A DNA stretch of 64,000 bases, taken from Falsiroseomonas frigidaquae. Its GTDB lineage: Bacteria > Pseudomonadota > Alphaproteobacteria > Acetobacterales > Acetobacteraceae. A model generated the notes under the pieces. The model had not been told where the DNA came from. It searched no databases and saw only the letters and a program-made list of their open reading frames with translations. The translations under genes were made by a program, and so were the position numbers. Position 1 is the stretch's first letter. Every line of letters starts with the position of its first letter. The DNA lies in the NCBI RefSeq assembly GCF_012163145.1, contig NZ_JAAVTX010000010.1, positions 48,360-112,359 on the forward strand, in the 5' to 3' direction. This document shows positions 42,923-64,000 of the stretch, piece after piece.

Positions 42923-42941
42923 ACGTCTGCGAGCCCTTTCC

Positions 42942-47123: not shown

Positions 47124-47125
47124 GG

Positions 47126-48015: not shown

Positions 48016-48020
48016 AGTTA

Positions 48021-49897: not shown

Positions 49898-50590
49898 ATG
49901 CCGCAGGCCGCCGCGCGCCAGCGCGCCGTTGAGGCGAAGGATGTTCGGTGCCGCATCTTGCTGATTAGCAGCCCTAAGGGCGGATCGGGCAAGTCCGTAC
50001 TCAGCCGGCATATTCTCGTGAGCGCTGCTCAAGCGGGCATCAAGGCAATTGGGCTCGACTTCGACCGCCAGCAGACCTTGTCGAAGTGGGCCGCGCGGCG
50101 CGCACGCACGCGCGAGGCGTTCCCAGATTTCGCCGAGGCGGTCGTAGAGTCGGTGTCACTGAGCGACTGGCGCGGAGCGCTCCGCCGGACCGAGGGCTAT
50201 AGCCTTGCTATCCTAGACACTCCGCCCAGCGTCGAGGACCACCTGCCAGCGATAGACGGTCTTGGCGAGGTTGCTGACCTGATTCTGGTGCCGGCCGTGT
50301 GCACGCAAGATGACGTTGAATCGGTCGCTCCCTGGGTGAAGGCGCTCGCCGCAAAGGGGTTCACCACATCGGTCGTCCTCAACCGCGCCAACAGGCGCAC
50401 AACGAGCTACGCCCGAATGCGGGGCGTCCTAGTGAAGGCCGGTTCCGTCTGCCCGACTGAGCTGCCGCAGCTGGAGGATATCCACGTGCCTTCCACGAAG
50501 GGGCTCACGCTGCTCGACTACTCCAAGTCGCGGGGAATCGAACCCTTCGAGGAGATCTGGGCCTACGTTCGCAGGGAGATCGGGCTGTGA
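49898..50590 (+). CDS. parA: ParA-family partition ATPase
   Basis: 230 residues. Deviant Walker A ISSPKGGSGKSVLSRHI (about 23-39), motif A' LDFDRQQTLSKWA, Walker B LAILDTPPSVEDH and the VVLNRAN segment are all ParA type. There is no N-terminal helix-turn-helix, so it belongs to the small (type Ib-like) ParA group, where the partner gene regulates the operon. It segregates the plasmid. The partner gene overlaps by 4 bp, and a palindrome lies upstream. Confidence 0.92.
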   Translation: MPQAAARQRAVEAKDVRCRILLISSPKGGSGKSVLSRHILVSAAQAGIKAIGLDFDRQQTLSKWAARRARTREAFPDFAEAVVESVSLSDWRGALRRTEGYSLAILDTPPSVEDHLPAIDGLGEVADLILVPAVCTQDDVESVAPWVKALAAKGFTTSVVLNRANRRTTSYARMRGVLVKAGSVCPTELPQLEDIHVPSTKGLTLLDYSKSRGIEPFEEIWAYVRREIGL

Positions 50591-51333
50591 GTGCTGCGTC
50601 CGGCAAACGCTCGAAGGCAGCGCTGAAGGCCTTCCTCGCGGCTGAGGACGATCCCCTCGGCGAAGTCCGCGATCCCCGTGCCAAGGAACTCCGCTCGCTC
50701 AGCGTCGAGGACCCTGCCGCGCTACAGGCGATCGGCGAAATATTCGCCGGCACTAGCCTGCCGGAGGATCAGGAGAAGGTCCGGCGTATTCTCCGCGCTC
50801 GGAGCGAGATCCAGAAGGAGTGGGGCGACGCTCGTGATTCGTTCTTGGCCATCGGCCGCGCACTGCTCGCGCTCGAAGGCGAACTGACGAAGGCCGAGTT
50901 CGCCCGCCTGCGCCAGGGTACAGAGCGTCTGTTTCCTTTCTCCGACGCGACAGCGACCCAATTCCGGCAGATTGCCCGCGCAGTCGATGGTGGCCGCATA
51001 CCGGCCGAGGCGTGCCCGGGGAGCTATGGCACCGCCTACCAGATCACGCTGCTCTCGGAACCTCAGCTCCGTGTTGCCCGCGAGAGGGGACTGATCCGTT
51101 CGGACGTGATGCGACGCGAAATCATGCAGCTCCGGCGGGAGGTGCCGGCCGATGGGCTTGAGCCGCTGCCGCCTGGGCGCCTTGACCGAGCTCGGCTGCG
51201 GGAGGAGCGCGCCAGGCTTGGTGAGAGGCGGGCTCGCTTGGTCGAGGAAATGGCTGTGGTGGATCGTCGGATAGCTCAGATCGACGAGCTCATGTCGCCA
51301 GTCATCGACGGCGAGGCCGAGGCTATTGCGTAG
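50587..51333 (+). CDS. ParA partner protein (ParB-like by position)
   Basis: 248 residues from GTG 50587 (GTGA overlap with parA). It has no classical ParB N-terminal motif. The middle part (about 75-185, DSFLAIGRALLALEGELTKA then GTERLFPFSDATATQFRQIA) looks helical and DNA-binding-like. The C-terminal 45 residues form a coiled coil (RARLREERARLGERRARLVE) suited to dimerisation. The position directly after parA and before repA suggests the centromere-binding partner. This is inference. Confidence 0.65.
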   Translation: MSAASGKRSKAALKAFLAAEDDPLGEVRDPRAKELRSLSVEDPAALQAIGEIFAGTSLPEDQEKVRRILRARSEIQKEWGDARDSFLAIGRALLALEGELTKAEFARLRQGTERLFPFSDATATQFRQIARAVDGGRIPAEACPGSYGTAYQITLLSEPQLRVARERGLIRSDVMRREIMQLRREVPADGLEPLPPGRLDRARLREERARLGERRARLVEEMAVVDRRIAQIDELMSPVIDGEAEAIA

Positions 51334-51383
51334 GGGGGCTAAGGAAAGGGTACGGGAGAGGCCGCGCTTCGCCCTGAACGACC

Positions 51384-51514
51384 CTGGACTCTGGCGGGAA
51401 GCGCCGCTGCGGGACTCGCGAGGATCCCTGATGATTCGTGTAGCTACGGACTACGCTGGATAACCCTCGCCTGGACTTTCCCGGGGCTTCGTTCCGGATT
51501 TGGACTCTACCGGA
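51384..51514 (-). repeat. Iteron-like repeats downstream of repA (3 copies)
   Basis: On the minus strand there are CCCGCCAGAGTCCAG (51384-51398), CCCGGGAAAGTCCAG (51471-51485) and TCCGGTAGAGTCCAA (51500-51514), with consensus YCCGnnARAGTCCAG. The last ends directly before the repA stop codon. They are probably binding sites for RepA used in copy-number control or handcuffing. Confidence 0.65.
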
Positions 51515-51515
51515 A

Positions 51516-52472
51516 TCAGCCGCCGGCTAAGCGCCGTGGTCCGCGACCGCTTAAAGCCACAACCCGAGGCGTGCTTGGTGCCACCGGCGGGCGAGACGGA
51601 CGCAGTGTAATGCCGCGCTCGTGCACATCGACAGCAGCGTCGGGGTAGACGGCAGTCGCCAGGTTAAGCGTGTCTTTGAACTGGTCCTTGAAGTGGTCGA
51701 GCCGCTTCACGCCACGGCCGAACTGCTGATGCAATGCTCGCCAGCCGATCGGCGTGGGTTCTGACAGTGCGTGGAGACGGTAGGCAAGCCAGCAGTAGAC
51801 GTCGAGCGCCATGCTGTTGTTGGCGATCTGGCGGACTGCTGATTCTTCGATTGGCACAGGGTGCTTCTTCAGCTGCTGAAAGAACATGTCCGACAGCGTC
51901 GCCGTCTCGATGAAGAGGCTTCCCTGAGCGTTGTCTTCCTCTACGAACATCGAGGTGTCCAAGATGTTCTGATTTACCAAGCCGGTGCGGTTACCTTGCT
52001 TAATAGTGAAGGTCATCCGGCAGCGGCTGAGCCGCTCTGCTTGGTCGCGCACGTCCTTCATGGACTTGCCGCCGATCGGTATCCCCAGGCGGCGGAGCCA
52101 AGCGTGTAGGCTCTTCCCGAGCTCGATCTCGCGGCTATTCGTACGTAGCGCCTCGGACTGTAAATAGAGCAAAATGAGGCGTGCACGGCTGCCGTAGGGG
52201 ACGCCGACGCTAACCGGCTCCCCGCCTGGTACGGCGCGGAGGCCAGGCTGAACGATGAGAGTGACCCGTTCCGTGGTAACCTGCCAGGGAGCATCGTCTG
52301 GAAGGCGCTTATGGGGGAGGGCGGCCTGCGACCAGCCTGAGTAGAGAAAGCCGATCTCGACGTCTTCGCTGGCAAGGTAAGCAGCCGCTGCCTCGATGAC
52401 CCGACGGTCAAAATCTGACCGCAGCGCGGCCTCACGGCCTGCTTCCTTCAATAGCCTGTGGACTTCACCCAT
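51516..52472 (-). CDS. repA: Plasmid replication initiator RepA
   Basis: 318 residues from ATG 52472 (GTG 52481 is possible). The family core reads VGVPYGSRARLILLYLQSEA, TNSREIELGKSLHAWLRRLG and IGGKSMKDVRDQAERLSRCR, the RepA_C pattern of broad alphaproteobacterial plasmids. A further winged-helix region contains SMALDVYCWLAYRLHAL. It binds iterons and opens the origin. Nine 15-mer repeats flank the gene on both sides. It is convergent with the parA operon, 182 bp from its end. Confidence 0.92.
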   Translation of the reverse strand: MGEVHRLLKEAGREAALRSDFDRRVIEAAAAYLASEDVEIGFLYSGWSQAALPHKRLPDDAPWQVTTERVTLIVQPGLRAVPGGEPVSVGVPYGSRARLILLYLQSEALRTNSREIELGKSLHAWLRRLGIPIGGKSMKDVRDQAERLSRCRMTFTIKQGNRTGLVNQNILDTSMFVEEDNAQGSLFIETATLSDMFFQQLKKHPVPIEESAVRQIANNSMALDVYCWLAYRLHALSEPTPIGWRALHQQFGRGVKRLDHFKDQFKDTLNLATAVYPDAAVDVHERGITLRPSRPPVAPSTPRVVALSGRGPRRLAGG

Positions 52473-52528
52473 GGCGGTCACTCATCGGAATGGCTGCCAA
52501 TGTGCCAACACTGCTAAGATTCGTCATG

Positions 52529-52976
52529 CTGGACTCTATCGGGTCTTGCCAGAACTATTTGTAGATATTCTTGTAGAGGGCGGACAAAGTCCAGGGGATA
52601 ACCTCGTAAGACGTTCATTTTGCTTCAGAACGTCATCTGACGCACTGCCCGGCAAAGTCCAGCTTTTCCCCGGAAAAGATCAGCTTCAGTGTTTCGGCAA
52701 TCACTGCCAATTCGTCGGGTAGGAAGACGAGCGCCTTAAGCGACTCGCACGACGCTCCCGCAAGAGTCCAGTTTCTTGCCCCTACCGCCCGGGCTGAGTT
52801 CAATGTGATCGCTTTGGTAAGACGGCGACTTGGCAGCCCACCGAAGCACAATACGCACTCCTTGCAGTGCCCAGATCTCCAGCCCAACACAAGGCGCTCA
52901 CCATCACCCGCGATAAGTCCCGCTTACCGCGTGTGAGGAGAGGCTTGCCGCAATGGCGGTTCTCCGCCAGAGTCCA
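52529..52976. repeat. Iteron-like repeats upstream of repA, probable origin (6 copies)
   Basis: Matches to YCCGnnARAGTCCAG are at 52529-52543 (minus strand) and, on the plus strand, at 52581-52595, 52648-52662, 52669-52683 (degenerate, 21 bp after the previous copy), 52757-52771 and 52962-52976. The intervening sequence includes an A/T-richer part (52545-52625). This 0.5-kb stretch has no convincing gene and is the best candidate for the replication origin. Confidence 0.65.
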
Positions 52977-53002
52977 GCCGACAGGGGCGGGGGCCTCGCT
53001 CA

Positions 53003-53055
53003 TTGACCAAGCTTGACCAAGCGCGGTACTGGAAGAGAAAGACCAACCTTGGTCA
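53003..53055 (+). promoter_or_regulatory. Operator/promoter of the toxin-antitoxin operon
   Basis: TTGACCAAGC occurs twice in tandem (53003-53012 and 53013-53022). GACCAACCTTGGTC (53041-53054) is an inverted pair of the same core. Such repeats before a Phd/YefM-type antitoxin gene are normally its own binding sites. Confidence 0.6.
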
Positions 53056-53066
53056 GGAGGCCGCGT

Positions 53067-53309
53067 ATGTCCCAGGTCAATCTGTACGAGGCCAAAACCC
53101 AACTCTCCCGCCTGGTCGACCGCGCCGCCGCCGGCGAGGAGATCGTCATCGCCAAGGGCGGCCGCCCGCTGGCCCGCCTGGTGCCGCTGGCGGTGCGGAC
53201 CCGGCCGCGCGAGCTCGGCTTCCTCGGCAACGAGGTCTGGGTCGGGCCCGACTTCGACGCGCCGCTCCCCCACGATCTGGCGCGCGCCTTCGATGGCAAG
53301 GATCCGTGA
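53067..53309 (+). CDS. Phd/YefM-family antitoxin
   Basis: 80 residues from ATG 53067 (GGTCAGGAGG upstream). The N-terminus MSQVNLYEAKTQLSRLVDRA and EEIVIAKGGRPLARLVPL are the Phd/YefM DNA-binding fold. The C-terminal third (FDAPLPHDLARAFDGKD) would bind and block the toxin. The toxin gene starts within its stop codon. Confidence 0.92.
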   Translation: MSQVNLYEAKTQLSRLVDRAAAGEEIVIAKGGRPLARLVPLAVRTRPRELGFLGNEVWVGPDFDAPLPHDLARAFDGKDP

Positions 53310-53698
53310 GGCTCCTCCTCGACACTCAGATCCTCATCTGGGCCGTCACTGACACCGCGCGCCTGCCCGCGGCCGTCGTGGCTGCCGTCGCGGCACCCGG
53401 CAACGAGGTCTTGGTCAGTGCGGCCTCCGTCTGGGAAATCTCCATCAAGGCCGCGCTCGGGCGGCTGCGTTTCCCGCTCGAACGGATCGACGCGATCCTC
53501 GAGCGGGCCGGGATGGAGCACCTGCCGATCCGGGCCGCCCATGGCGTCGCCGCCGGCGCCCTGCCGCGCCACCACGGCGATCCCTTCGACCGCATGCTCG
53601 TGGCGCAGGCGCGGGTGGAGGACCTCACCCTGGTCAGCATCGACGCCGCCCTGTCCGCCTATGACGTCCGCCTGTTCGGGGCGGAGCCGGCGCGATGA
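53306..53698 (+). CDS. vapC: PIN-domain toxin (VapC-like)
   Basis: 130 residues from GTG 53306 (GTGA overlap). Acidic catalytic residues are seen in LLLDTQILIWAV, ASVWEISIKAALGRL and HHGDPFDRMLVAQA, the pattern of the Sll0205-like PIN group normally paired with Phd-type antitoxins. It is an Mg-dependent RNase that arrests growth if the plasmid is lost. It overlaps the recombinase gene by 4 bp, so it may be co-transcribed with it. Confidence 0.9.
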   Translation: MRLLLDTQILIWAVTDTARLPAAVVAAVAAPGNEVLVSAASVWEISIKAALGRLRFPLERIDAILERAGMEHLPIRAAHGVAAGALPRHHGDPFDRMLVAQARVEDLTLVSIDAALSAYDVRLFGAEPAR

Positions 53699-54690
53699 GT
53701 GAGGCGCTGGCGCCCTTGATGGCCCGGGAACCGGCCACCGCCACGATGCCGACCGCCGTTGCGACGGAGGCCCTGGCCGCCGCCCGCGCCTATGCCCGCG
53801 ACGCGCTGGCGCCCGAGACGCTGCGCGCTTACGCGACCGACTGGGCCCACTTCACAGCCTGGTGCCAGGCCGCCGGCTGCGCCCCGCTGCCGGCCGAGCC
53901 GGCGGCGGTGGCCGCCTATCTTGCCGCGCAGGCGCCGCTCTACGGCCGCTCCGCCCTCGAGCGCCGGCTGGCCGCGATCGGCCATGCCCATCGCCTGCGC
54001 GGGTTTGACTGGTCCGCCGGCCATCCCGTCCTCCGCACCACGCTGCGCGGCATCTTTCGGACCCATGGCAGTCGCAGGCGCCAGGCAGCCGCCCTGACCT
54101 CGGCCGAGCTGAAGAAGCTTGTCGCCGCCTGTGGTGGCGACCTCGCCGGCCTGCGCGACCGGGCACTGCTGCTGCTGGGCTTCGCCGGGGCGCTGCGCCG
54201 CTCCGAACTGGTGGCGGTGGAGCGCGAACACCTGCGCTTCACCGAGGCCGGGCTGCGGCTGCTGATCCCCACCTCCAAGACCGACGGGGAGGGCAGGGGG
54301 GTCGAGCTCGGCATCACCCGTGGCAAGCGCCCCGAGACCTGCCCGGTGCGCGCCCTTGAGGCCTGGCTCGAGATCTCGGACTGCCGCTACGGCCCGGTCT
54401 TTCGCAAGATCGACCGCTGGGGGACGATCGAGCACCGGGCGCTGGGCGGCGATGCCGTGCGCGACATCCTGCGCAAGCGCGCTTCAGCCGCCCGAATCAC
54501 GGTGGAAGGCGGCGAGCGCCTGTCGCCGCACGGGTTGCGGGCGGGCTTCGTTACCGAGGCCTATATGGCCGGCGCCCGTGACGAGCAGGTCATGGACCAC
54601 ACCCGCCACCGCGACCTCAAGACCATGCGTGGCTATGTCCGACGCGCGAAGCTGGTGACGGAGAGCGCGACGAAGCTGCTCGACCTGTGA
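53695..54690 (+). CDS. Tyrosine recombinase
   Basis: 331 residues. A SAM-like N-terminal domain (about 25-115) and a catalytic domain with Arg in GFAGALRRSELVAVE, Lys in LIPTSKTDGEG, His-x-x-Arg in LSPHGLRAGFVTEA, His in VMDHTRHRDLK and the nucleophile in MRGYVRRAKL (about 315). Xer/phage-type enzymes of this size resolve multimers or move cassettes. It overlaps both neighbours, an arrangement that ties it to the TA pair and the ScpA-like gene. Confidence 0.92.
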   Translation: MSEALAPLMAREPATATMPTAVATEALAAARAYARDALAPETLRAYATDWAHFTAWCQAAGCAPLPAEPAAVAAYLAAQAPLYGRSALERRLAAIGHAHRLRGFDWSAGHPVLRTTLRGIFRTHGSRRRQAAALTSAELKKLVAACGGDLAGLRDRALLLLGFAGALRRSELVAVEREHLRFTEAGLRLLIPTSKTDGEGRGVELGITRGKRPETCPVRALEAWLEISDCRYGPVFRKIDRWGTIEHRALGGDAVRDILRKRASAARITVEGGERLSPHGLRAGFVTEAYMAGARDEQVMDHTRHRDLKTMRGYVRRAKLVTESATKLLDL

Positions 54691-55319
54691 CCGCGGCGAC
54701 GGTGGGCGAAGCGCGGGCAGGGGAGGGGGCGGCCGCGCCCCTTGTGCCGGCTGACACCGACTGGCTCTACCACCACCTGAGGGTTACGGGCGCGCCGGAG
54801 ACGGTGGCGCTGTTCCGGGCTGCCGCCGCCGGCGCGGGCGTGATCCCCTGGACCCATGACCACGGTGCCGCAGCCGAGGGCTGGTTTCACCTGCTGCTCG
54901 CCCCGCCGCCGCCGGCCCGTCGCACCATCAGCCTGGAGGGCGCGCGGATTCTCGCAGGCCAGCTCCGCGATGCGGTGGAGGCGCGGAGCCAGCTGGTGGC
55001 CGAGCGGGCGCCGCAGAGCCGGGACTGCCCGCTCGACTTGCACCGGCTGCTGCCGGTGCCCGACCGCCTGCTGCGGCTTGGGCCGGACCACCGGGACAGC
55101 CGCGCCTGGCTCTGGTCGCACTGGGGCACGGCGGAGGCGCTGCGCGGCGTGGTGGAGCTGCCGATCGGCGGACGCGGCGGGGCGCGGCGGCGCGACCCGG
55201 GTCTGTTCTGGGCGGGGTTCTGGTCGGCGGACTGGACCCCTTGGCCGGCGCTGTTGGCGCTGCGCACCCGTTGGCCCGGGCTGCGCCTCGACCTGCGGCC
55301 ACTCTACGATGGCCCCTGA
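54687..55319 (+). CDS. Unknown protein between recombinase and ScpA
   Basis: 210 residues from GTG 54687 (GTGA overlap). I do not recognise a family. The part DTDWLYHHLRVTGAPETVAL, GVIPWTHDHGAAAEGWFHLL and the Trp-rich RAWLWSHWGTAEAL then FWAGFWSADWTPWPALLALR suggest a compact soluble domain. Its end overlaps the scpA start by 11 bp. It probably works with the recombinase or ScpA, since all are in one overlapping run. Confidence 0.6.
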   Translation: MTAATVGEARAGEGAAAPLVPADTDWLYHHLRVTGAPETVALFRAAAAGAGVIPWTHDHGAAAEGWFHLLLAPPPPARRTISLEGARILAGQLRDAVEARSQLVAERAPQSRDCPLDLHRLLPVPDRLLRLGPDHRDSRAWLWSHWGTAEALRGVVELPIGGRGGARRRDPGLFWAGFWSADWTPWPALLALRTRWPGLRLDLRPLYDGP

Positions 55320-56109
55320 CGGCGATGCCTCCCTCCTCGACACGCCCCGGCGCGCCGAGCTGGGCAACTCCGGCGCGCCGGCGCTGCGGCTCGGCAGCTA
55401 TGAGGGACCGCTCGACCTGCTGCTGGAGCTCGCCCGGGCGCAGCGGGTCGACCTCGCCGCGATCTCGGTCGTGGCGCTGGCGGAGGCCTTCGGCGCGGCG
55501 GTGGAGCGCGCCATCGCCGGCCGGCGCGTGCCGCTGTCGCAGATGGCGGACTGGCTGGTCATGGCCGCCTGGCTGCTGCTGCTGCGCTCGCGGCTGCTGC
55601 TGCCGCCGGGCTCCGAGGCGGACCGGGCGGCGCAGGCGGAGGCGGCCGCGCTGCGGCGGCGGCTGGCCGACCGCGCGGCGGTGCGGGCGATGGCGGACTG
55701 GCTCGAGCGGCGGCCGCAGCTGGGCCGAGAGGTCTTCGGGCAGGGGGCGCCGGTGGTAGAGCCGCAGCCGATGCCGCTGGCCGACATCACCGAGATGCTG
55801 CGCGCCTGCCTGCGGCTGATCGCCCTGCCGATGCGCCAGCGCGTCTACCGGCCGAACCCGCCGCCGCTCTGGCGCGTACCGGACGCGCTGGCGAGGATCC
55901 GCGACATGCTGGCCGCGCTGCCCGGGCAGCGCGCGCCGCTCGCCCACTTCGTTCCGCGTGGCGGTTACAGGACGCGGACACTCCTGCAGCGGCGGGCGGC
56001 GCTGGCCAGCACACTGGTGGCGGCACTTGAACTCGGGCGTCACGGGGCGGTCACGCTCGAGCAGGACAGCGCCTTTGGCGAGATCAGCTTGCATACTCGC
56101 AGCCGATAG
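55309..56109 (+). CDS. scpA: ScpA-like kleisin (segregation and condensation protein A)
   Basis: 266 residues from ATG 55309; the frame extends upstream only as a shadow. The kleisin N-terminus LGSYEGPLDLLLELARAQRV DLAA is clear, followed by LSQMADWLVMAAWLLLLRSR and an Arg/Ala-rich helical region. The C-terminal winged-helix contains GAVTLEQDSAFGEI. ScpA bridges SMC heads; ScpB and SMC are not in the window, so it must use host partners or act apart. Plasmid copies next to a tyrosine recombinase suggest a maintenance role. Confidence 0.85.
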   Translation: MAPDGDASLLDTPRRAELGNSGAPALRLGSYEGPLDLLLELARAQRVDLAAISVVALAEAFGAAVERAIAGRRVPLSQMADWLVMAAWLLLLRSRLLLPPGSEADRAAQAEAAALRRRLADRAAVRAMADWLERRPQLGREVFGQGAPVVEPQPMPLADITEMLRACLRLIALPMRQRVYRPNPPPLWRVPDALARIRDMLAALPGQRAPLAHFVPRGGYRTRTLLQRRAALASTLVAALELGRHGAVTLEQDSAFGEISLHTRSR

Positions 56110-56380: not shown

Positions 56381-58015
56381 ATGAACTCGGATCGATTGGA
56401 GCTGGCTGTTATCATGGCGCATCGCGCATTCGTTGCTTTCGCGGGGGGTGGAGCGAAGGGCGTGGTGCATGTCGGCGCCTTGAAGGCGCTCGAGGCGCGC
56501 GATGTCGCGCTGAAGGGCGTTGCGGGAACGTCCGCGGGCGCCATTGTGGCCGCGCTCGTGGCGTCAGGGTTTCGCGCAGACGACCTGATAGATGGCGCAA
56601 TTGGACGTACAATCCTGGAGCGCCTGTCCGCGATCGATCCCAAGGTGAGCCGCGCGACGGACCTTTTCGGCAAAGCCGGCTGGCTCAGGGTGCGGGTCTT
56701 TCGATGGCTGCTCCGGCAGCGCCTGCCGTTTCCCATGTTGGCAGGGGCTTTCTGGGCGATCCCCCTGCTGTTAGCGCTTCTCATCGTCTGGCTGGCCCCG
56801 GGGCATACGCTCTGGTGGGCCATTGGTGCGTGGGCGGCCACCGGCGCTGCCCTATGGCTTTCCTATCGACAGGTGATGGGCGGGCTGGCGGACGTGCGCC
56901 GTTTTCGTGATGCGTTGGCCGAATTGCTGAGGCGTCAACTCTTCCCGCACGAACCGGACCGCGTGGTTCGCATGGGCGACTTCGGGCGAGACGGCCGACC
57001 GGAGCTGAAGATCGTCAGTGCAAATCTCTCTTTGCGCGCTCTGCACTTATTCTCGGCCGATCGAACGCCGGACACCCCGGTCGCTGATGCGGTTGCCGCT
57101 TCAATCTGCCTGCCGGTGATCTTCCGGCCCTGGACGATCGATGGCGAACTCCATGTCGATGGCGGGATCGTCTCGAACCTTCCGGCTTGGCCCTTCGATG
57201 AGGAACGGGAGCTGGACCCCGAAGCGCTGACGATCGCCGTGGAGATCGAAGATCGCACGCCGGGTCGGACGCTCGGCCGTTACAGCTGGCTGCCGGCCGC
57301 GGTCCGAACGGCGTTGTTTGGGTCGGGAGAGCTTAACCTGCGGGTTGCGGGGCCCGCCGAGCAGCTAGCGCTGCCGACAAGCTTCGATTTGCTCGACTTC
57401 GACAAGTCGGGCATCCAAGCCGCGGCCGAAGTTCGCCAGGTCGCGGAGGCAGCGGGCGTGCGGCTCGACAAGCGTCTATTTCGACTTCCCGAAATCTATC
57501 GGAACGCGTGCCAAGTGGCGCAGGCGCTCGCTGTCGACGGGCTCGGCCTTCCAGCAGGCGGCCGTCCGGGCGGGCCTCGCGTCCGGGTCGCAGTAGGCCG
57601 CCTTGAGCGCGGCTATATGCACTCGCTCAGACTTTCGCACAGCGTCGGGTTCGAGGATGACCCTGACGAGTCCATGCTCGTACCGCTGGAGGGATCGGTA
57701 GCAGGCGCGGCCTGGGGGGAGCGAGAAAGCCGAGTAGAGACCTATCCGCTCGCGCCCGAGCGCGACCTTCCGGGCGACGCGAACCGCCTGCGCCGGAAGG
57801 CGCGCTGGGCGGACGTGAAATGGGTGATGTGCATCCCCATCTTGGACGAGGCGTCGAGTGAGCCGCGCCTGCTGGTTCAGCTCGATGGGAACATCGCGCT
57901 GCCCCAGAGCGCTGAGACGGCGAGCGCGCTTGAGGCCGTAGAAGAGGCTGTCAAGGACTTCTTCGATTTGGTATTACATGAGCTGAAGGAGCTGGAAGAC
58001 GATCATGGCCCTTAA
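56381..58015 (+). CDS. Patatin-like phospholipase with internal membrane hairpin
   Basis: 544 residues from ATG 56381; GTG 56360 and ATG 56414 are alternatives. Patatin motifs: oxyanion loop GGGAKG (22-27), nucleophile in GTSAGA (Ser 51) and the catalytic Asp in DGGIVSN (about 260). Between them a hydrophobic double segment (about 117-162, AGAFWAIPLLLALLIVWLAP and WWAIGAWAATGAALWLSY) looks like a membrane hairpin inserted into the lipase domain. The C-terminal 170 residues are soluble and unknown. It likely cleaves membrane lipids. It overlaps the next gene by 11 bp. No CD-NTase is nearby. Confidence 0.87.
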   Translation: MNSDRLELAVIMAHRAFVAFAGGGAKGVVHVGALKALEARDVALKGVAGTSAGAIVAALVASGFRADDLIDGAIGRTILERLSAIDPKVSRATDLFGKAGWLRVRVFRWLLRQRLPFPMLAGAFWAIPLLLALLIVWLAPGHTLWWAIGAWAATGAALWLSYRQVMGGLADVRRFRDALAELLRRQLFPHEPDRVVRMGDFGRDGRPELKIVSANLSLRALHLFSADRTPDTPVADAVAASICLPVIFRPWTIDGELHVDGGIVSNLPAWPFDEERELDPEALTIAVEIEDRTPGRTLGRYSWLPAAVRTALFGSGELNLRVAGPAEQLALPTSFDLLDFDKSGIQAAAEVRQVAEAAGVRLDKRLFRLPEIYRNACQVAQALAVDGLGLPAGGRPGGPRVRVAVGRLERGYMHSLRLSHSVGFEDDPDESMLVPLEGSVAGAAWGERESRVETYPLAPERDLPGDANRLRRKARWADVKWVMCIPILDEASSEPRLLVQLDGNIALPQSAETASALEAVEEAVKDFFDLVLHELKELEDDHGP

Positions 58016-58202
58016 AAGCAGCACGTTCGCCATCCAGGCCGGCAGCAGCGTCAAGGCTGACGCCAAGAAAAAGGCGTTGCTTGCGCGGCATGGTAAGTCG
58101 GTCGAGAAGGTTGTGGCGGACGCCAAATCGTTCTCTGATGACCGGAAGCGCAAGCTAAGCCAGATCAGCGACCTGCAATTGCGCGAAAGCGCCGCCCGCT
58201 AA
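58005..58202 (+). CDS. 65-residue Lys-rich protein in the patatin operon
   Basis: From ATG 58005, 11 bp inside the patatin gene. The sequence (VKADAKKKALLARHGKSVEK, then VVADAKSFSDDRKRKLSQIS) is basic, helical and without signal or transmembrane segment. I recognise no family. It could be an antidote, an adaptor or a small acylation target for the neighbouring transferase. The next gene starts 18 bp downstream. Confidence 0.6.
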   Translation: MALKSSTFAIQAGSSVKADAKKKALLARHGKSVEKVVADAKSFSDDRKRKLSQISDLQLRESAAR

Positions 58203-58220
58203 GTCTTGCCAGGGCTAGGG

Positions 58221-58610
58221 ATGAGCGTTCTGATCGGGCTCGGCCTTGACCTTATCGATCTTACGCATTTCCGCGTCCACTATGGGGATGAGGATCCCGA
58301 GCTCCTAGCGCGCTGTTTCACTGAACGTGAGATTGAAACTGCTGGTACAGGCGCCGATCGGTTGGCCCGCCTAGCGGCGCGTTTCGCCGTTAAGGAAGCA
58401 ACGTTTAAGGCGCTCGGCGGGGGCGAGGGCGTGGGGCTTCCGGAGATCGAGACGGTCGCGGGTGAGGACGGGGTGCCGGTCGTTGTTCTCCATGGATCGG
58501 CCAAAGAACTTGCTCACGCACGTGGCGTCACCAGCTTCCTCGTGAGCCTGACTCACTCGGCGACGTCGGCCGCAGCCGTCGTGATCGCGCTGTCGGGCGG
58601 CCCGAGGTAA
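58221..58610 (+). CDS. acpS: AcpS-type 4'-phosphopantetheinyl transferase
   Basis: 129 residues from ATG 58221 (CTAGGG upstream). Mg-binding Asp in IGLGLDLIDL (Asp 10) and the Glu in ARFAVKEATFKALGGG (Glu 59) match holo-ACP synthases, as do CFTEREI and VSLTHSATSAAAVVIA. It moves phosphopantetheine from CoA to a carrier-protein Ser. On a plasmid a dedicated copy implies a dedicated carrier; a candidate is coded at 62517-62819. Its last 58 bp overlap the convergent MazG-domain gene. Confidence 0.92.
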   Translation: MSVLIGLGLDLIDLTHFRVHYGDEDPELLARCFTEREIETAGTGADRLARLAARFAVKEATFKALGGGEGVGLPEIETVAGEDGVPVVVLHGSAKELAHARGVTSFLVSLTHSATSAAAVVIALSGGPR

Positions 58611-59473
58611 CGGATCGTGCGGCGGTCGAGATCGGCTTCGACCTTGCCCCCACCATTCTTCATCAACGCGCGCCACGTGGCGAAGCCGTCGAGCACGGCT
58701 TGCCGCCAGGCGGAAGGAGGCTGCGAGGCGACTTCCAGATGGGCGCCCATGCCACGAAGCGTAGTGAGGAGCGCCTCGTCGACATCGGGAACGCCATCCA
58801 GGAACTGGTGCTTGCGCGCATAGTCGAACGCCACGGCGGCGATGCCTTCTTCGATCACCGCTGCGCGTCCCCCATCCTCGACTTCATCGATCAACGGCCG
58901 GCTGCGGCGCTTGAGCCGCATCAGGCTGCGAAGAACCGGTGACCAGCCGAGAATCGCGGCATAGGCCATGTGGAAGATGTCGTGGAAACGATAGCCGTCG
59001 TCTTCATAGGCGTTATCGGTGAGCGCCGACCCGACGAGGCGGCCGTCGATTTCTGTCCACACCTCCACGCGCGCGCCTTCACGGATCTCGCGGAAGGTCG
59101 CAATGAAGCGGCGTGGAAAACGTTCGCTCTCGCTGTAATCGGCATCGAAGCGGTGGGGGGCGTCGTGGTCAAGATAGAGCGAGGCGACCTTGAGGAGATT
59201 CTGCCGGGCAATGTCTTCGAGATCGAGGTCGTACTTGCTAGCGAGATTGGCAACATACCAAAGGATATCGCCGAGTTCCTCGCTGACGCGATCGACAAAC
59301 AGGACATGGCCGGGTCCGTCACGCAGGCGCTTCTTGTACTCGGCGAGCAGCTGTCCAGCTTCCCCGGCGAGCCCGAGAAGCGGGATCAGCCGGGCGGCAT
59401 CGGCCGACATGTTGGTTGAGGCGGGCGTGCGATCAGTAAGCAGAGCCTGCTTCTGAAAATCGGAAAGCTTCAT
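58553..59473 (-). CDS. MazG-domain nucleotide pyrophosphohydrolase with unknown C-terminal domain
   Basis: 306 residues from ATG 59473 (ATGA overlap with the upstream gene). The MazG-like domain (about 25-100) has LLGLAGEAGQLLAEYKKRLR and VSEELGDILWYVANLASKYD. The ExxD pair (Glu 66, Asp 69) is intact; in the first metal motif Gln 41 takes the usual Glu place. The C-terminal 190 residues contain GYRFHDIFHMAYAAILGWSP and RRSRPLIDEVEDGGRAAVIE and are unassigned. MazG enzymes cut (d)NTPs to NMP and pyrophosphate, so it could clear or prepare a modified nucleotide. Confidence 0.85.
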   Translation of the reverse strand: MKLSDFQKQALLTDRTPASTNMSADAARLIPLLGLAGEAGQLLAEYKKRLRDGPGHVLFVDRVSEELGDILWYVANLASKYDLDLEDIARQNLLKVASLYLDHDAPHRFDADYSESERFPRRFIATFREIREGARVEVWTEIDGRLVGSALTDNAYEDDGYRFHDIFHMAYAAILGWSPVLRSLMRLKRRSRPLIDEVEDGGRAAVIEEGIAAVAFDYARKHQFLDGVPDVDEALLTTLRGMGAHLEVASQPPSAWRQAVLDGFATWRALMKNGGGKVEADLDRRTIRYLGPPDSAITTAAADVAE

Positions 59474-60516
59474 AGCGCATCGCCAAAAAGGTCGGAGGAA
59501 GGAGTCGAGGCGTAGGTCGGAATCTTGCCGTTCAGGCCCCATTTGGGCGGAAACCAGGGTTGCGTCGGCGCGCCCTGCGGCCGGAACATTTGCTTGATCC
59601 GCGTCCGGCCCGAAAGACCCGCAATTTCGGGATGCGAGACGCGCGTGTATTTGCTGATCTCGCAGAACAGGTTCTGGCAATCGATCAGCTGCAAAGGCCG
59701 ACCCCAGAGTGAGCGGAACGAGAGCCCAAGCCGGGCGAGTTCGCTCCCTTGCTCCTCCATCATGTGCGCGATCAGCGCGTCGGCGGGAACGGCCTCCGCA
59801 TTTAAGAACGTCTTGGCGAGCCCGTCGCGCGCGCCGGGACCCGCAACAACGAAGCTGGCCTCGTCATGGTCGATCACGCTCGTGTAGTTGAGGTCGATCG
59901 CGAGCTGAAAGGCGAGGAAGTCTCCGAGCGAGGGAAAGCTCTTTAGGAGTTCAAAGACTTCTTGGAGGTCGCGGCTCTGCTGCAGACGCGGCACAAAGCT
60001 GCTTTCGAGCATGAGGCCGAGCAGTTTCAGGTGCCCCCGATGTTTCGTGCGGGTTTGATCGAGTGACACGGGCGGAATGATGTAGGCGGCCGAGTAGAGC
60101 CGCCGGCCGGACGTCAACGCCTCGGCCAGCACCTGATCATAAGCGTAGGGATCGAAGGACTGCCAGGTCAGGAGCCCAAAGCGGTGCTCGAGCAGCTCCC
60201 ATGTCGAGATCTTGTTGAAGAACTTGAATAGGAGCGTGCGGAAAACGACCTCCGCCGGTGCATCGGGGTAGCGCTCATCGTAGATGACGCGCCGGATCAG
60301 ATATTGGCTGACCCGGTCGGCGGCGCGATAAGCATTGGTAAACTTGAAGCTCTGGAGGATCGGGTCCTCAGTCCAGGGCGGTCCTTTGCCTTCAAGACGG
60401 CGAAAATAGATCGCCTGGCGTTCGCAAGCAAAGCGCCAGTAGAGATCGAACACGGGCGTCCGCTGAAGGCCGCGGATGCGGGACGGCCCGGAAAGAAATA
60501 GACGTCTGGTCCTCAC
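59470..60516 (-). CDS. Putative DNA-base hypermodification protein (5-hmdU kinase helical / thymine pyrophosphorylase-like family)
   Basis: 348 residues from GTG 60516, overlapping the upstream stop (GTGA). The characteristic helical blocks are FKFTNAYRAADRVSQYLIRR, EVVFRTLLFKFFNKISTWEL and, later, DLNYTSVIDHDEASFVVAGP with GPGARDGLAKTF (about 226-237), like the glycosylase-type GPG loop. They resemble proteins annotated as 5-hmdU DNA kinase helical domain or alpha-glutamyl/putrescinyl thymine pyrophosphorylase, which act in phage thymine hypermodification. No kinase domain is fused. It probably acts on a modified base or nucleotide; the assignment is by motif memory. Confidence 0.65.
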   Translation of the reverse strand: MRTRRLFLSGPSRIRGLQRTPVFDLYWRFACERQAIYFRRLEGKGPPWTEDPILQSFKFTNAYRAADRVSQYLIRRVIYDERYPDAPAEVVFRTLLFKFFNKISTWELLEHRFGLLTWQSFDPYAYDQVLAEALTSGRRLYSAAYIIPPVSLDQTRTKHRGHLKLLGLMLESSFVPRLQQSRDLQEVFELLKSFPSLGDFLAFQLAIDLNYTSVIDHDEASFVVAGPGARDGLAKTFLNAEAVPADALIAHMMEEQGSELARLGLSFRSLWGRPLQLIDCQNLFCEISKYTRVSHPEIAGLSGRTRIKQMFRPQGAPTQPWFPPKWGLNGKIPTYASTPSSDLFGDAL

Positions 60517-61322
60517 GCGTCGACCGGCACCGTTCGAGCTCCATCGACGTGCTGCTTCACCACCGTCATCAGTTCCAGCACGTCCGGATGCGATTTCGTC
60601 ACGTCCATCTGCGCCATGCCGACGAAGACGTTCAGCTGCTCGAAGCGAAGCTTCATCTGGTTCGCCATGAAGGCGCCCAGGCGCGCAAGGCCAAGGTAGT
60701 TGCCGTACGCCTTCCGGGCGATCTGTTGGGTCGCGTAGAAGGCGTTCAGGTGGAGCGCACTGCCGTCGAAGGTGAAGCTCACCTGCTGGAGACAGGGGAA
60801 CTCCAATAGGCTTGCAGAGCTGTGGTCCCGCGCGGGGTCGAAGGTGGTCGCTTGAAATTTCGACGTACGGCGCGCCCTGGGGTGCGCCTCGTAGTCGTCA
60901 AGCATCCACTTCAATTGGTTCGGGCCCTTGCCGTTGCCGTTCAGATCGACGAGCCGCTGGAAGTAGGACCCCCGCCTGTTGTTGCGCGGGTTAAACTCTT
61001 GCACGCGCTCGAAGCTTTCGATGAAGAGTTCGAAAAACGCTTCGCGGTCGCCGCCTGAGATATCCCAGTAGCGTTGAGGAAAGATCGTCCAGGCGACGTT
61101 CTCGGTGTCCCGCTTTTCCTGCGCCTTAAGGAACGCGTCGACCGCGGTGCGGATCTGCGGGACTTCGGCGGCAACGCCGGCCGCGTCGAAGCCGCGGATC
61201 ACTAGCGTCAAAGGCGTGATGCGCGTGATGCCGGGCCGGGTCAGTTCCAGCATCACCTCCGCCCAACCGAGCGAGAGATTGTCGGCGACGATCCTTACGG
61301 ATTTTCCGTCAGTCTTGCTCAT
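60513..61322 (-). CDS. Thymidylate synthase / dCMP hydroxymethylase homologue
   Basis: 269 residues from ATG 61322, which overlaps the end of the ImmA/IrrE gene by 14 bp. The C-terminal half aligns with the TS core: LLEFPCLQQVSFTFDGSALH places a Pro-Cys at the catalytic position (Cys 177). It is followed by LNAFYATQQIARKAYGNYLG, corresponding to the RSxDxxLGxPFN substrate region but without the Asp and with Tyr-Leu-Gly. The N-terminal half is diverged. Relatives make dTMP or 5-hydroxymethylpyrimidines; the changed substrate loop suggests another nucleotide or base. Not a housekeeping thyA. Confidence 0.8.
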   Translation of the reverse strand: MSKTDGKSVRIVADNLSLGWAEVMLELTRPGITRITPLTLVIRGFDAAGVAAEVPQIRTAVDAFLKAQEKRDTENVAWTIFPQRYWDISGGDREAFFELFIESFERVQEFNPRNNRRGSYFQRLVDLNGNGKGPNQLKWMLDDYEAHPRARRTSKFQATTFDPARDHSSASLLEFPCLQQVSFTFDGSALHLNAFYATQQIARKAYGNYLGLARLGAFMANQMKLRFEQLNVFVGMAQMDVTKSHPDVLELMTVVKQHVDGARTVPVDA

Positions 61323-62160
61323 CGGGATCCTCCAGGAAGCGGTTGGCGGCGGGGCCGACATAATCTTTGGGCATGACACGAACCTCGAACGGCTCGCTCG
61401 AGCCTGTCACAGTGGCGATGCCGCGCCTCACGGCGCGGTAGAGGTCGAACTCGTCTAACGAGCGCACATGTTCGATCGCGGTACCTTCGGCGTCGACTCC
61501 TAAGGGAAGCAGAACAGCCGCACCCTTTTCGACATCGACGGTGGCCGCTTCGTTCTGATCATCGACCACCATGAAGGAGTCGTAGTCGTGGTCGAGAATT
61601 TCACGGCGGATGCGTTGCGGGGTCCAGCGCCCAAGCTCCGTCCGGCGAGCGGCGCTGATTCCCTGCAGCGTGTAGCTCAGATGGTTGATTAAAGTGACGT
61701 AGCCGACGCCGAACTGGCAGGCCACGATGAAGATCTGAAGCGGCGAGGCTGTCGCAGGGCTCCAGCCGCGCCGGGCGAACGCGCCGCGCAGTCCCACCGA
61801 GGGCATCAGGAAAAATGCGGCGAAGGCGTTGGCCAGAACCTCTTCCGGTTTGCCTGAGTCCGGCCTCTCGTCCTCTTGCAGCTGGTCGATGGTCGAGCCG
61901 TGACCGAAGCAGTGGTGGCCGAGTTCGTGCGCGCAGGTGAAGGCGCGCCGGGGAACCGGTCGGAGCGACGACAGGAGGATGCGGCCAGGACCCTGCTTGA
62001 AGTAGAAGCCTTCCATGCTGGTATCGAGGAAGCGGACCGTCACGCCGAGACGCTCGGCCGCCGCATAGGGGTCTGCCGGCCCGAACTGATCAAGGTCGAG
62101 CCGGTCGCGCAGGTCGGTCGCAGCCTGCATCCCTTGTCGGAGAAGGTCCTTCCGGTCCAT
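61309..62160 (-). CDS. ImmA/IrrE-family metallopeptidase
   Basis: 283 residues from ATG 62160. The zinc site is AFTCAHELGHHCFGHG (HExxH at 78-82), followed by EVLANAFAAFFLMPSVGLRG with the third ligand Glu/Asn region. The C-terminal 130 residues (about 155-283) are family-variable. These peptidases cleave a paired XRE repressor and switch on the operon after DNA damage or phage signals. The XRE gene lies 4 bp upstream, so together they form a sensing switch for the downstream genes. Confidence 0.9.
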   Translation of the reverse strand: MDRKDLLRQGMQAATDLRDRLDLDQFGPADPYAAAERLGVTVRFLDTSMEGFYFKQGPGRILLSSLRPVPRRAFTCAHELGHHCFGHGSTIDQLQEDERPDSGKPEEVLANAFAAFFLMPSVGLRGAFARRGWSPATASPLQIFIVACQFGVGYVTLINHLSYTLQGISAARRTELGRWTPQRIRREILDHDYDSFMVVDDQNEAATVDVEKGAAVLLPLGVDAEGTAIEHVRSLDEFDLYRAVRRGIATVTGSSEPFEVRVMPKDYVGPAANRFLEDPDEQD

Positions 62161-62164
62161 GCCG

Positions 62165-62515
62165 TCAGCCCCCTTCCTCGTCGTCCGACCGCATTGCGGC
62201 GAGTGCCTGGAGCAGCTTATCCAGCGACTCCTTCGGCAGCTTCTGGAGCTCGCGGGCGGCAAGCTGAAGGCGGGGATCGTCAAGGGCCATCGCCTTGGGC
62301 GACTCGCCCGTGAGATAGCTCGTCGAAACCTCGTAGAGGGTGGCGAAGCGGCTGAGCTCTTCGGCGCTGACGCGCCGGTTCCCGGCCTCGATCTCGCTGA
62401 CCGTGGGTCGGTGCATGTTCATACGCTGAGCCGCCTGGCCTTGGCTGAGACCAGACAGGCGGCGCGCCTCGCGGAGCCGAGCAGCGATGGCGCGGCGGCG
62501 TTCGACATCGTCCAT
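62165..62515 (-). CDS. XRE-family transcriptional regulator
   Basis: 116 residues. A helix-turn-helix at about 13-65 (RLREARRLSGLSQGQAAQRM and HRPTVSEIEAGNRR) is followed by a helical tail with leucines (LQLAARELQKLPKESLDKLL). It is the likely target of the neighbouring ImmA/IrrE peptidase. It probably binds the CTTAC repeats at 62831-62857. It begins 1 bp after the ACP-like gene. Confidence 0.93.
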   Translation of the reverse strand: MDDVERRRAIAARLREARRLSGLSQGQAAQRMNMHRPTVSEIEAGNRRVSAEELSRFATLYEVSTSYLTGESPKAMALDDPRLQLAARELQKLPKESLDKLLQALAAMRSDDEEGG

Positions 62516-62516
62516 C

Positions 62517-62819
62517 TCAGGCGGCCGCCTTAACGGCGTTTTTGGCCCGCGACTTGTCGCAGATGAGCTTGGCCGATTGGTCGATCGTCAAAAGCGGTCC
62601 TCCCTTTTCGCCGCCGAAGATGTGGACGTCGGGCGGTATCTTCACGCCGAGCTTGCGGGCAACCAAAGTTGTGGCCGCCGGCCAGACGGTGCTGTCGAAC
62701 TTTTCGAGCGCCTTCGGCGGCACGACCGAGCCGTCGAGCTGCGGGCAGCCGAGTCCGCTACGGGCCTGGATGTCTTTAAGAACCTCGATCAGGGCTTTCC
62801 TGGCGTCATCGAGCGTCAT
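62517..62819 (-). CDS. Acyl-carrier-protein-like protein
   Basis: 100 residues, first gene of the minus-strand operon. It is not annotated by an obvious full-length family, but its middle aligns without gaps to E. coli ACP: FDSTVWPAATTLVARKLGVK IP against [20 protein letters not shown] IP, with the same 21-residue spacing from Asp-Ser to Ile-Pro. Ser 43 would be the phosphopantetheine site. The first helix (DDARKALIEVLKDIQARSG) and last helix (TIDQSAKLICDK) also fit the four-helix fold. A dedicated AcpS is coded at 58221. An ACP role is inferred but well supported by this pairing. Confidence 0.65.
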   Translation of the reverse strand: MTLDDARKALIEVLKDIQARSGLGCPQLDGSVVPPKALEKFDSTVWPAATTLVARKLGVKIPPDVHIFGGEKGGPLLTIDQSAKLICDKSRAKNAVKAAA

Positions 62820-62830
62820 GCCACCCTCTC

Positions 62831-62857
62831 CTTACGGTCGGTAAGATATTCTTACGG
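62831..62857. promoter_or_regulatory. CTTACGG operator repeats between divergent genes
   Basis: CTTAC-ggtcg-GTAAG (62831-62845) is an inverted repeat, and CTTACGG recurs at 62851-62857, 20 bp after the first copy. They sit 12-38 bp upstream of the minus-strand operon start and 94 bp before the divergent gene at 62951. They are probably bound by the XRE protein. Confidence 0.6.
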
Positions 62858-62950
62858 ATCACGGAGTTCAAGGGGGAGCTGCGGAAAAGTGGGGGCGGCT
62901 GGATTGCGCGCCCGGCGGACGCTACAGGAATGGTCTGCGAGGAGAGCGGA

Positions 62951-63850
62951 ATGGCGTTCTGGAGCAGTCAAAAGCTGGAAGCGCACCTTGCGCGGTTGAC
63001 TGATAACCCGGACCCCGGGATGGTCGACTGCAACGCGCTGACGCTACGGGTCGGGCCCGAATATTATGTGACCCCTGGCCTGGAGCATCCGTCGCCGCGA
63101 ACGCACACCAAGCAGCCGCTCGACATCGGTCAAGGGATGACGATCCCGCCAGGACAGTTCGCTTTTCTCCTGACCGAAGAGAAGATCACGATTCCGCCGG
63201 AGGTGATGGGGTTCATCTCCGTCAAGGCGACTTACAAGCTGAAGGGCCTCGTCAACGTATCGGGCTTCCACGTTGATCCGGGCTGGAGCGGTCGGCTGAT
63301 CTTCACGGTCTTCAACGCGGGCCCGAGCACGATACACTTGGAGCGGAGGCTCCCTGTCTTCCTGTTGTGGATCGCCGACCTTGATGCGCCCTCGGAGAAG
63401 CGTAAGCGCGCCCCAGGTCACGAGGGCATTCCTCCTGCGATTATTAGTACCATCACGGGCGTGGTCGACTCTATCTATGCACTCGAAAAGCGTGTCGAGA
63501 AGAACATCGCCGACGTTTCTGTGAAGCAGGACGCTGAGATCAAGAAGATCGCGAACAAGCAGGATGACTTTCGGGACGAGGTCGTAGAGCTCAAGGAGCG
63601 ACAGAACAAGATCCTGCTGGGCTTCGGCATTGCGGCGGTCGTGGCCGGCGCCATTGTCGGAGCCGGCGTCAAGATGCTCGGTGACCGTCTGTTTCCTGCT
63701 GCACCTGTCGCCATCACCGCACCGCCTCCTGCGACTGGGAGGACGGACGATGAGCAGGCAACCCCGGCGGCAAGAAATGGCGTGGCACCGGTGGTGCCGC
63801 GGCCACCCGAACGGAACGCCGCCGACTCGCGAGATAAAACTGACAACTAA
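62951..63850 (+). CDS. Membrane-anchored dCTP-deaminase/dUTPase-fold protein
   Basis: 299 residues from ATG 62951, chosen for GAGGAGAGCGGA upstream (ATG 62930 lacks such a site). The N-terminal 145 residues follow the Dcd fold: PPGQFAFLLTEEKITIPPEV, VKATYKLKGL and HVDPGWSGRLIFTVFNAGPS. In E. coli Dcd (DPGWSGCIVLEF) the catalytic Glu lies where this protein has Thr 119. The RSSxxR segment is also changed. A coiled coil (about 165-220) and one transmembrane helix (about 220-244, LLGFGIAAVVAGAIVGAGVK) follow, then a Pro-rich tail. It looks like a nucleotide-binding sensor or effector tethered to the membrane, not a normal deaminase. Confidence 0.78.
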   Translation: MAFWSSQKLEAHLARLTDNPDPGMVDCNALTLRVGPEYYVTPGLEHPSPRTHTKQPLDIGQGMTIPPGQFAFLLTEEKITIPPEVMGFISVKATYKLKGLVNVSGFHVDPGWSGRLIFTVFNAGPSTIHLERRLPVFLLWIADLDAPSEKRKRAPGHEGIPPAIISTITGVVDSIYALEKRVEKNIADVSVKQDAEIKKIANKQDDFRDEVVELKERQNKILLGFGIAAVVAGAIVGAGVKMLGDRLFPAAPVAITAPPPATGRTDDEQATPAARNGVAPVVPRPPERNAADSRDKTDN

Positions 63851-63901
63851 TTGTCTGGCCAGGATTGATCGGCGGGCATGGTTTCGTGGAGCGGACTATT
63901 A

Positions 63902-64000
63902 CTACTGTGTCATATAATAGTGGCGCTGGGTGAGGCGGTGGCAGCAAGGACATCGCGGCATACTGCGGGCGAGTTCGCGGGCGATGCGAAGGCGCATGGT
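63902..64000 (-). CDS. C-terminal end of a gene running in from the right edge
   Basis: The minus-strand frame is open from the window edge and ends at TAG 63902-63904. The last 32 codons read RLRIARELARSMPRCPCCHR then LTQRHYYMTQ. A CPCC-H pattern could be part of a zinc-binding tail. Too short to identify, and it may not be coding. Confidence 0.3.
   Translation of the reverse strand, partial: TMRLRIARELARSMPRCPCCHRLTQRHYYMTQ

Follow-up and report, generated by a model that had tools for sequence, protein, structure and literature searches.

The CapH/CapP mechanism, in which a repressor is removed by a protease, accompanies some cyclic-oligonucleotide-based anti-phage signalling systems (CBASS), and neighbourhoods combining TIR, SLOG, Nmad2, MazG and HMUDK_hel domains were reportedly predicted by Burroughs et al. 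in 2015. Among phages, the excerpted text of PMC9476957 places a pyrimidine hydroxymethylase, aGPT-Pplase1 and a nucleotide kinase in the thymidine cassette of M6-like phages. Moreover, in the available sections of the DefensePredictor paper (Science 2026, PMC13092281), thymidylate synthase (TS) and 5-hydroxymethyluracil kinase are among the newly validated domains; the legend of Fig. 3 names dNMP kinase, nucleotide-modification-associated and metallophosphatase domains, that of Fig. 6 names uracil-DNA glycosylase (UDG), and the predicted, unvalidated systems include aGPT-Pplase, MazG, MazG-C and dUTPase. Here we describe a block of ten genes (56,414-63,850) in a 64,000-nucleotide stretch of Falsiroseomonas frigidaquae (contig NZ_JAAVTX010000010.1, positions 48,360 to 112,359; hereafter the window), in which relatives of such parts stand beside an acyl-carrier-like protein (ACP) and a phosphopantetheinyl transferase (PPTase) of the AcpS type. 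With a probability of about 0.38, we read the block as a mobile, inducible conflict cassette, most likely anti-phage, in which a phosphopantetheine carrier would help to produce a C5-modified pyrimidine nucleotide; both this chemistry and a role in defence are inferences.

Open reading frame (ORF) calls and family scans bore out the layout given in a preliminary description of the sequence, i.e., two convergent, overlapping runs plus one divergent gene:

56,414-58,015, plus strand: patatin-like phospholipase (PF01734, 2e-31), carrying GTSAG and DGG motifs; hydrophobic in two stretches, strongly so in one
58,005-58,202, plus strand: 65-aa protein, no family assigned; overlaps the patatin 3' end; C-terminal half conserved in the alignment
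58,221-58,610, plus strand: AcpS-type holo-ACP synthase (PF01648, 1.7e-12)
58,553-59,473, minus strand: MazG pyrophosphohydrolase domain plus MazG_C (PF18722, 9e-75; PF03819, 6.5e-5)
59,470-60,516, minus strand: HMUDK_hel protein, with the helical domain of 5-hydroxymethyldeoxyuridine (5-hmdU) DNA kinase (PF18723, 1.8e-103)
60,513-61,322, minus strand: TS-like protein with an invariant PC cysteine (TIGR03283, 2.3e-10, under the model cut-off)
61,309-62,160, minus strand: ImmA/IrrE (M78) metallopeptidase, CapP-like (PF06114, 2e-15; capP, 8e-14)
62,165-62,515, minus strand: XRE repressor, CapH-like (HTH_31, 7e-14; capH, 1e-13)
62,517-62,819, minus strand: acyl-carrier-like protein with an FDS attachment motif (Ser43), heading the run; recognized via relatives, no library match
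62,930-63,850, plus strand: dCTP-deaminase (Dcd)-fold domain plus membrane helix, catalytic Glu replaced by Thr (PF22769, 5e-13)

The plus-strand run (patatin, 65-aa protein, AcpS) and the minus-strand run (ACP, XRE, ImmA, TS-like, HMUDK_hel and MazG, from 62,819 down to 58,553) overlap tail to tail, with AcpS ending at 58,610 and MazG at 58,553, while the gene of the Dcd-fold protein, with its membrane stretch, is divergent to the minus-strand run. The likely gene starts of the patatin (56,414), AcpS (58,221), TS-like (61,322) and ImmA (62,160) genes were picked by eye.

By homology, the block shares with the M6-like phage cassettes a TS-like/hydroxymethylase part and an HMUDK_hel/aGPT-Pplase part. 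On the other hand, it holds no radical S-adenosylmethionine (rSAM) gene, no pyridoxal-phosphate (PLP) gene and no kinase-like domain, while the phage cassette listed in the excerpt of PMC9476957 holds no ACP or PPTase. Like CBASS with CapH/CapP, the window has an XRE and M78 pair and a patatin; unlike CBASS, it showed no CD-NTase among the ten genes (Pfam, NCBIfam and PADLOC models), and its patatin matches the CBASS phospholipase models weakly. The DefensePredictor systems resemble the cassette in the domain names given in text and legends, and the term "acyl carrier" does not occur in the text of PMC13092281 as available. Tests or predictions in those sections of PMC13092281 had already linked TS, 5-hmdU-kinase-type and MazG proteins to defence; the carrier module is the part of the cassette for which no match in print was found. 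A full-text search of open-licence papers, outside which an earlier mention is possible, found no acyl-carrier-type protein in a named defence system. To our knowledge no named defence system uses such a protein, and the cassette probably represents an as yet unnamed kind of antiviral defence.

The unity of the cassette was evident from its recurrence. A scan with HMUDK_hel over one genome per species returned at least 541 confirmed relatives, the best 80 of which underlie every count below on 80, 63 or 17 loci; as the best-scoring loci they are skewed towards the query's own group, and genome searches starting from the TS-like and from the ACP-like protein were added as an offset. Each ORF of the 80 loci was searched with models built up from the ten window proteins. 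The TS-like gene was found in 63 of them (TS+), together with ImmA (62 loci), XRE (60), ACP (58), MazG (52), PPTase (48), Dcd (21) and patatin (6). By contrast, neither ImmA nor ACP was found in the 17 remaining (TS-) loci, where the counts were 13 for MazG, four for Dcd, three for XRE and one each for PPTase and patatin, the last two coming from a single locus (L018) on a contig that stops short of where TS would lie. The proposal withstood the test of refutation set beforehand: genes for the ACP-like, TS-like and helical-domain proteins occur together time and again in unrelated genomes, with ACP in 58 of 63 TS+ but in 0 of 17 TS- loci. Most of the TS- loci are TIR/SLOG/Nmad2 neighbourhoods, which resemble the cassette in HMUDK_hel and usually MazG but differ in the absence of ACP and ImmA from all 17.

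Forty-nine of the 58 modelled ACPs were recognized by the main model and nine by two divergent models (A7 and A8, whose sequences were chosen by eye). In two of the five other TS+ loci (L056 and L072) a carrier was seen by eye in another frame directly before TS, which raises the count to 60 of 63; in two more (L037 and L045) the contig breaks off, and the last (L083) has a shortened ImmA. The order ACP-XRE-ImmA-TS on one strand was kept in 57 of the 58 loci with all four genes modelled, the exception (L096) having TS between carrier and XRE. TS+ loci fall under ten phylum labels, one of them doubtful: a single "Bacillus" sp. record (L059) is nested among Sphingomonadales on the TS tree, and its cassette is either contamination or a recent transfer.

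Furthermore, over 54 loci ACP, ImmA, TS and HMUDK_hel showed a strong correlation in their divergence (r 0.71-0.89, a level that none of 999 permutations reached; for example, 0.88 for ACP-TS, 0.87 for ACP-ImmA and 0.83 for TS-HMUDK), while the divergence of XRE was less correlated with all others (r 0.46-0.60). A TS profile run over 385 genomes of the class matched seven places in six genomes, and at six of these the carrier lies directly beside XRE (the seventh, L013, starts inside TS at a contig edge). HMUDK_hel was found in eight of the 385 genomes, four of which have both it and TS, and in one of 16 genomes of the genus, namely the window's own. Over 398 genomes of the phylum, a carrier profile built from two sequences gave three matches (the window, G661 and G575), and G661 carries the series ACP-XRE-ImmA-TS-HMUDK-MazG. 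In contigs that are viral by label, the TS profile found three relatives, each with carrier, XRE, ImmA and TS. The genes thus form a conserved, co-diverging and sporadically distributed unit.

The carrier of the window has no match in the family libraries, including Pfam, and its identity was set via relatives. In an alignment of 45 sequences (the window protein and those 44 of its 49 listed relatives with suitable length), Pro34 and Ser43, the latter in the FDS motif, are the only invariant columns. In four Actinomycetota loci a carrier of another group (A7) occupies the same position beside XRE; the one scanned, from Micromonospora (L060), matches PF00550 (phosphopantetheine attachment), and hhalign related the A7 group to the window's carrier family with a P value of 1.8e-4 and a probability of 48%. 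The third and more divergent group (A8) retains a DS motif and aligns weakly with A7 (29%). Profile matches of the carrier in the PDB included ACPs at E 0.06 or worse, among unrelated chains. The 65-aa protein, also considered for the ACP role, was ruled out, the ACP being the product of 62,517-62,819.

The window's AcpS is a member of PF01648, and the KE..K motif is kept in 49 of 50 family copies; the host genome has two further PF01648 genes. The proposal of a carrier with a transferase of its own held in the window, and elsewhere it extends to the 48 of 63 TS+ loci with a PPTase. A plasmid of the archaeon Haloarcula marina (L128) carries genes for a restriction endonuclease, a dTMP kinase, HMUDK_hel, an Sfp-like PPTase, a carrier-like protein, XRE, ImmA, a C1 peptidase and a TS-like protein, in which the Sfp-like enzyme (PF01648 above, PF17837 below the cut-off) replaces AcpS; a second locus (L012) also has a transferase of this type. 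Haloarchaea are not normally known to make fatty acids on an ACP. The clearest indication that the phosphopantetheinylation step is itself required comes from this use of a second type of transferase for the same role. Given the intact transferase motif, the invariant Ser and the Sfp-like PPTase in two AcpS-less copies, it is strongly implied that AcpS loads a phosphopantetheine arm onto the ACP-like protein.

No Pfam model matched the TS-like protein above its cut-off, PF00303, the family of housekeeping ThyA, included; the TIGR03283 match of the protein reached 40 bits against a model cut-off of 175. Nevertheless, hhalign against a PF00303-type TS gave a probability of 91% (E 1.2e-6, 197 columns), and alignment with solved TS placed the catalytic Cys and the Asn (of a GN motif), both invariant in 48 of 48 TS-like sequences; we take these residues to be the catalytic nucleophile and the pyrimidine-binding residue, respectively. 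The closest solved relatives are CMP 5-hydroxymethylase and TS, each at E 2e-3. A single-sequence tblastn query with the window protein had no match in 50,697 phage records. A role as the host's source of thymidylate was ruled out because the host genome contains ThyX; a PF00303 gene was searched for there and none was found.

Homologues of HMUDK_hel, on the other hand, turned up in 487 phage records, in 97 of them over at least 80% of its length; the records include 162 Salmonella, 67 Pseudomonas and 61 Vibrio phages, all the homologues are below 60% identity, and a few are annotated as aGPT-Pplase1 or pyrophosphorylase. Across 49 HMUDK_hel sequences 72 columns are invariant. In three loci (L035, L052 and L064) HMUDK_hel and MazG form a single ORF, and a dTMP-kinase-like domain occurs in 15 of the 63 TS+ loci, in eight of them fused to HMUDK_hel. 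The earlier claim of a hypermodification-like protein stood for the window, but some relatives have no HMUDK_hel and a UDG instead: in L140-L142 the genes for TS and a UDG family protein meet tail to tail, with a C1 peptidase gene placed between those of ImmA and TS. Bradyrhizobium and Sphingobium plasmids show the same arrangement, and L126 and L127 belong to this variant along with L140-L142.

The adjacent XRE and M78 genes, described beforehand as a switch, match the capH (1e-13) and capP (8e-14) models, and the HExxH motif of ImmA is present in 61 of 63 family copies; by sequence the two are a CapH/CapP-like regulator pair with predicted protease activity. In the mechanism that we propose, XRE would repress the cassette until infection or DNA damage is sensed and the ImmA-like protease removes the repressor, as the CapH/CapP homology suggests. 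AcpS would then put the phosphopantetheine arm on the ACP-like protein, and the TS-like Cys would attack C6 of a pyrimidine (deoxy)nucleotide so that a one-carbon or carrier-borne group could be placed on C5, in keeping with the conserved Cys and Asn. HMUDK_hel, in some relatives together with the dTMP-kinase-like domain, may process the C5 group in the way thought for its homologues in phage thymidine hypermodification, and MazG/MazG_C would cleave the triphosphate form. The modified nucleotide would poison replication and/or be read by an accessory output; here this would be the patatin together with the Dcd-fold membrane sensor, and in other loci different proteins, or no candidate was found.

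Thiols trap the C5-methylene intermediate in TS mutants. A new type of immune chemistry, in which nucleotides are modified with a dedicated phosphopantetheine carrier, is possible, though on balance doubtful. In its boldest version the holo-carrier thiol (or the group it bears) would capture the C5-methylene intermediate of the TS-like enzyme, and the carrier-tethered or carrier-derived C5-substituted pyrimidine nucleotide, finished by HMUDK_hel and MazG, would be the poison or signal. If the carrier does join in nucleotide chemistry, immunity would link the carrier-protein biochemistry of fatty-acid, polyketide and peptide synthesis with nucleotide signalling, and, if the proposal is true, the bacterial HMUDK_hel/aGPT-Pplase genes would gain a pathway open to testing. 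With about six to eight genes the cassette is small; it is also widespread and easily cloned into laboratory strains.

Several findings weigh against our main reading of the block: i) no PPTase was found in 15 of the 63 TS+ loci, although four of these (L034, L037, L050 and L052) are on contigs ending there; ii) an enzyme to load the carrier was looked for in the core and none was found; iii) the dTMP-kinase-like domain is not in the window and was found in only 15 of the 63 TS+ loci; iv) a simple MazG E..E/E..D pattern is met in only 22 of 53 sequences; v) HMUDK_hel was not found in L122, L126, L127 and L140-L142, though TS and carrier are present; vi) there is no common effector, as Dcd, patatin, C1 peptidase, TIR, TIR-SLOG and Nmad2 were all not found in 29 of the 63 TS+ loci, which means that the core may act by itself; and vii) one of the three carrier matches in the phylum (L117, in G575, from 9411-10078 on) keeps ACP and XRE without TS, HMUDK or ImmA, the chief finding against a purely catalytic carrier and an argument that its role could be regulatory rather than chemical. 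In L117, two ORFs after XRE are by eye of phosphatase/nuclease type and protease-nuclease type, i.e., effector-like.

That last locus is one reason to consider the carrier as a sensor or regulator, which, translated together with XRE, would report the acyl/CoA or phosphopantetheine state (or a shut-off of host fatty-acid synthesis) to XRE/ImmA while TS, HMUDK and MazG work without it. We regard this as rather unlikely. It accords with the place of ACP as first gene, directly beside XRE and sharing a 4-nt overlap with it in 34 of 58 loci, with the lack of a detected loading enzyme, and with an ACP divergence that follows ImmA as closely as TS; yet the pair ACP-XRE shows the weakest of the four ACP correlations (r 0.59), and ACP is missing from every TS- locus, though three of them have XRE somewhere. 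A second alternative concerns the product: thymine in host or plasmid DNA would be hypermodified, for discrimination of self from foreign DNA or for escape from restriction. Self-marking of this kind would suit a HMUDK_hel that is common to many phages and an aGPT-Pplase1 (the name of some homologues) that stands beside a pyrimidine hydroxymethylase in the M6-like cassette excerpted from PMC9476957, but no nuclease was found among the conserved members, XRE/ImmA control better suits an inducible toxin than a constant mark, and a UDG in place of the missing HMUDK_hel in some copies would be odd for marking. Self-marking is accordingly a distinctly unlikely account.

A metabolic or plasmid-maintenance role, for example thymidylate salvage with toxin-like control, would dispense with immunity altogether. 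The plasmid-like location and the TS and kinase homologies agree with it, but the sporadic presence (one of 16 genomes in the genus, eight of 385 in the class), the PADLOC matches in the flanks, the variable effector-like partners and the host's ThyX leave it only a slim chance. Finally, ten genes at one contig end could be chance neighbours packed on a plasmid; since dozens of genomes with ten phylum labels between them share the core genes, their order and their strand, this is refuted for the core, and the chance that it applies is close to nil. The anti-phage cassette with carrier-assisted chemistry is the most probable of these readings.

As for the defence-island setting raised in the preliminary description, models of known defence systems hit many genes in the flanks, and the set also occurs on conjugative plasmids. 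The TS-like gene was found on 18 of 72,556 plasmids, 13 of them typed conjugative, and seven annotated plasmid regions were inspected. Among 134 flanking ORFs of TS+ loci up to L068 (at most two per side, at least 150 aa, a few long ORFs left out), models belonging to 238 PADLOC families had a match at E 1e-8, including parts of Gabija, AbiE, PARIS and AbiL; because PADLOC models overlap, the matching genes are fewer than 238, and no family occurred in more than two of the 134 ORFs. A small control of 44 ORFs from one replicon, the window's plasmid, matched two PADLOC families. By Pfam, the flanks also hold, among others, integrases, resolvases, transposases and conjugation genes. Separately, a cassette on a Rhizobium plasmid (L121) lies beside caspase and pYEATS genes, and on a Gloeothece plasmid (L120) HMUDK_hel is accompanied by MazG, TIR proteins and a patatin that bears the annotation CBASS phospholipase. 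A second type of HMUDK_hel neighbourhood, without TS and ACP, combines MazG, Nmad2, a ThsB-type TIR and TIR-SLOG (L058, L061, L062, L074, L081, L091, L093 and others).

As for the output genes, a patatin or Dcd-like effector had been proposed, and the two parts fared differently. Patatin, 65-aa protein and AcpS lie on one strand, opposite HMUDK_hel, in all eight patatin loci (the window and L018-L024), with the Dcd gene intervening in this group in L019 and L021. On the TS tree, seven of these loci group in a single clade with support 100/100, the eighth (L018) having no TS on its contig, and a patatin of the window type was not found in the other 73 scan loci. A universal effector role of the patatin was ruled out by this confinement to one clade, and the protein is by sequence a putative clade-specific accessory effector; in the patatin ORF of L021 the GxSxG motif was not found. 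The 65-aa gene accompanies the patatin in all eight loci, and library scans gave no convincing family match for its product.

The Dcd-fold protein retains an NVSGFHVDPG core, but the catalytic Glu of E. coli Dcd (1xs1), which we take to be residue 138, aligns with a Thr. Across 31 family ORFs this column holds Ser (18), Ala (11), Thr (one, the window) and Arg (one) and no Glu, and a hydrophobic stretch is present in 29 of the 31. A nucleotide sensor or effector on the membrane is the probable role of this protein.

The contig itself is plasmid-like: a TrwC relaxase, a ParA-type ATPase, a RepA_C protein and a tyrosine recombinase/integrase are encoded ahead of the block (window 42,816-56,109), where an ORF judged ScpA-like by eye also precedes it. 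The G+C content of the final four 2-kb windows is 62-64%, compared with 64-75% in the preceding ones. A side finding among the relatives concerns a metallophosphatase with a weak second thymidylate-synthase match, below the Pfam cut-off, in L026 (11532-13715; the only locus of this type scanned); its relatives occur in L023, L024, L027, L028 and L036, and this type of metallophosphatase adjoins a further PF00303-type TS and, in most cases, a dTMP-kinase-like gene.

The window ends with the contig, which terminates 150 bp past the Dcd gene, so that the block may extend further. A terminal overlap of the contig was looked for and none was found, and the best syntenic relative (G015) stops 253 bp past the match. 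A 15-bp word occurs, inverted, near both contig ends (window 63,900-63,914 and G000:C1:85-99), with three further exact copies on other contigs; these repeats may mark the termini of an insertion element at which the assembly broke.

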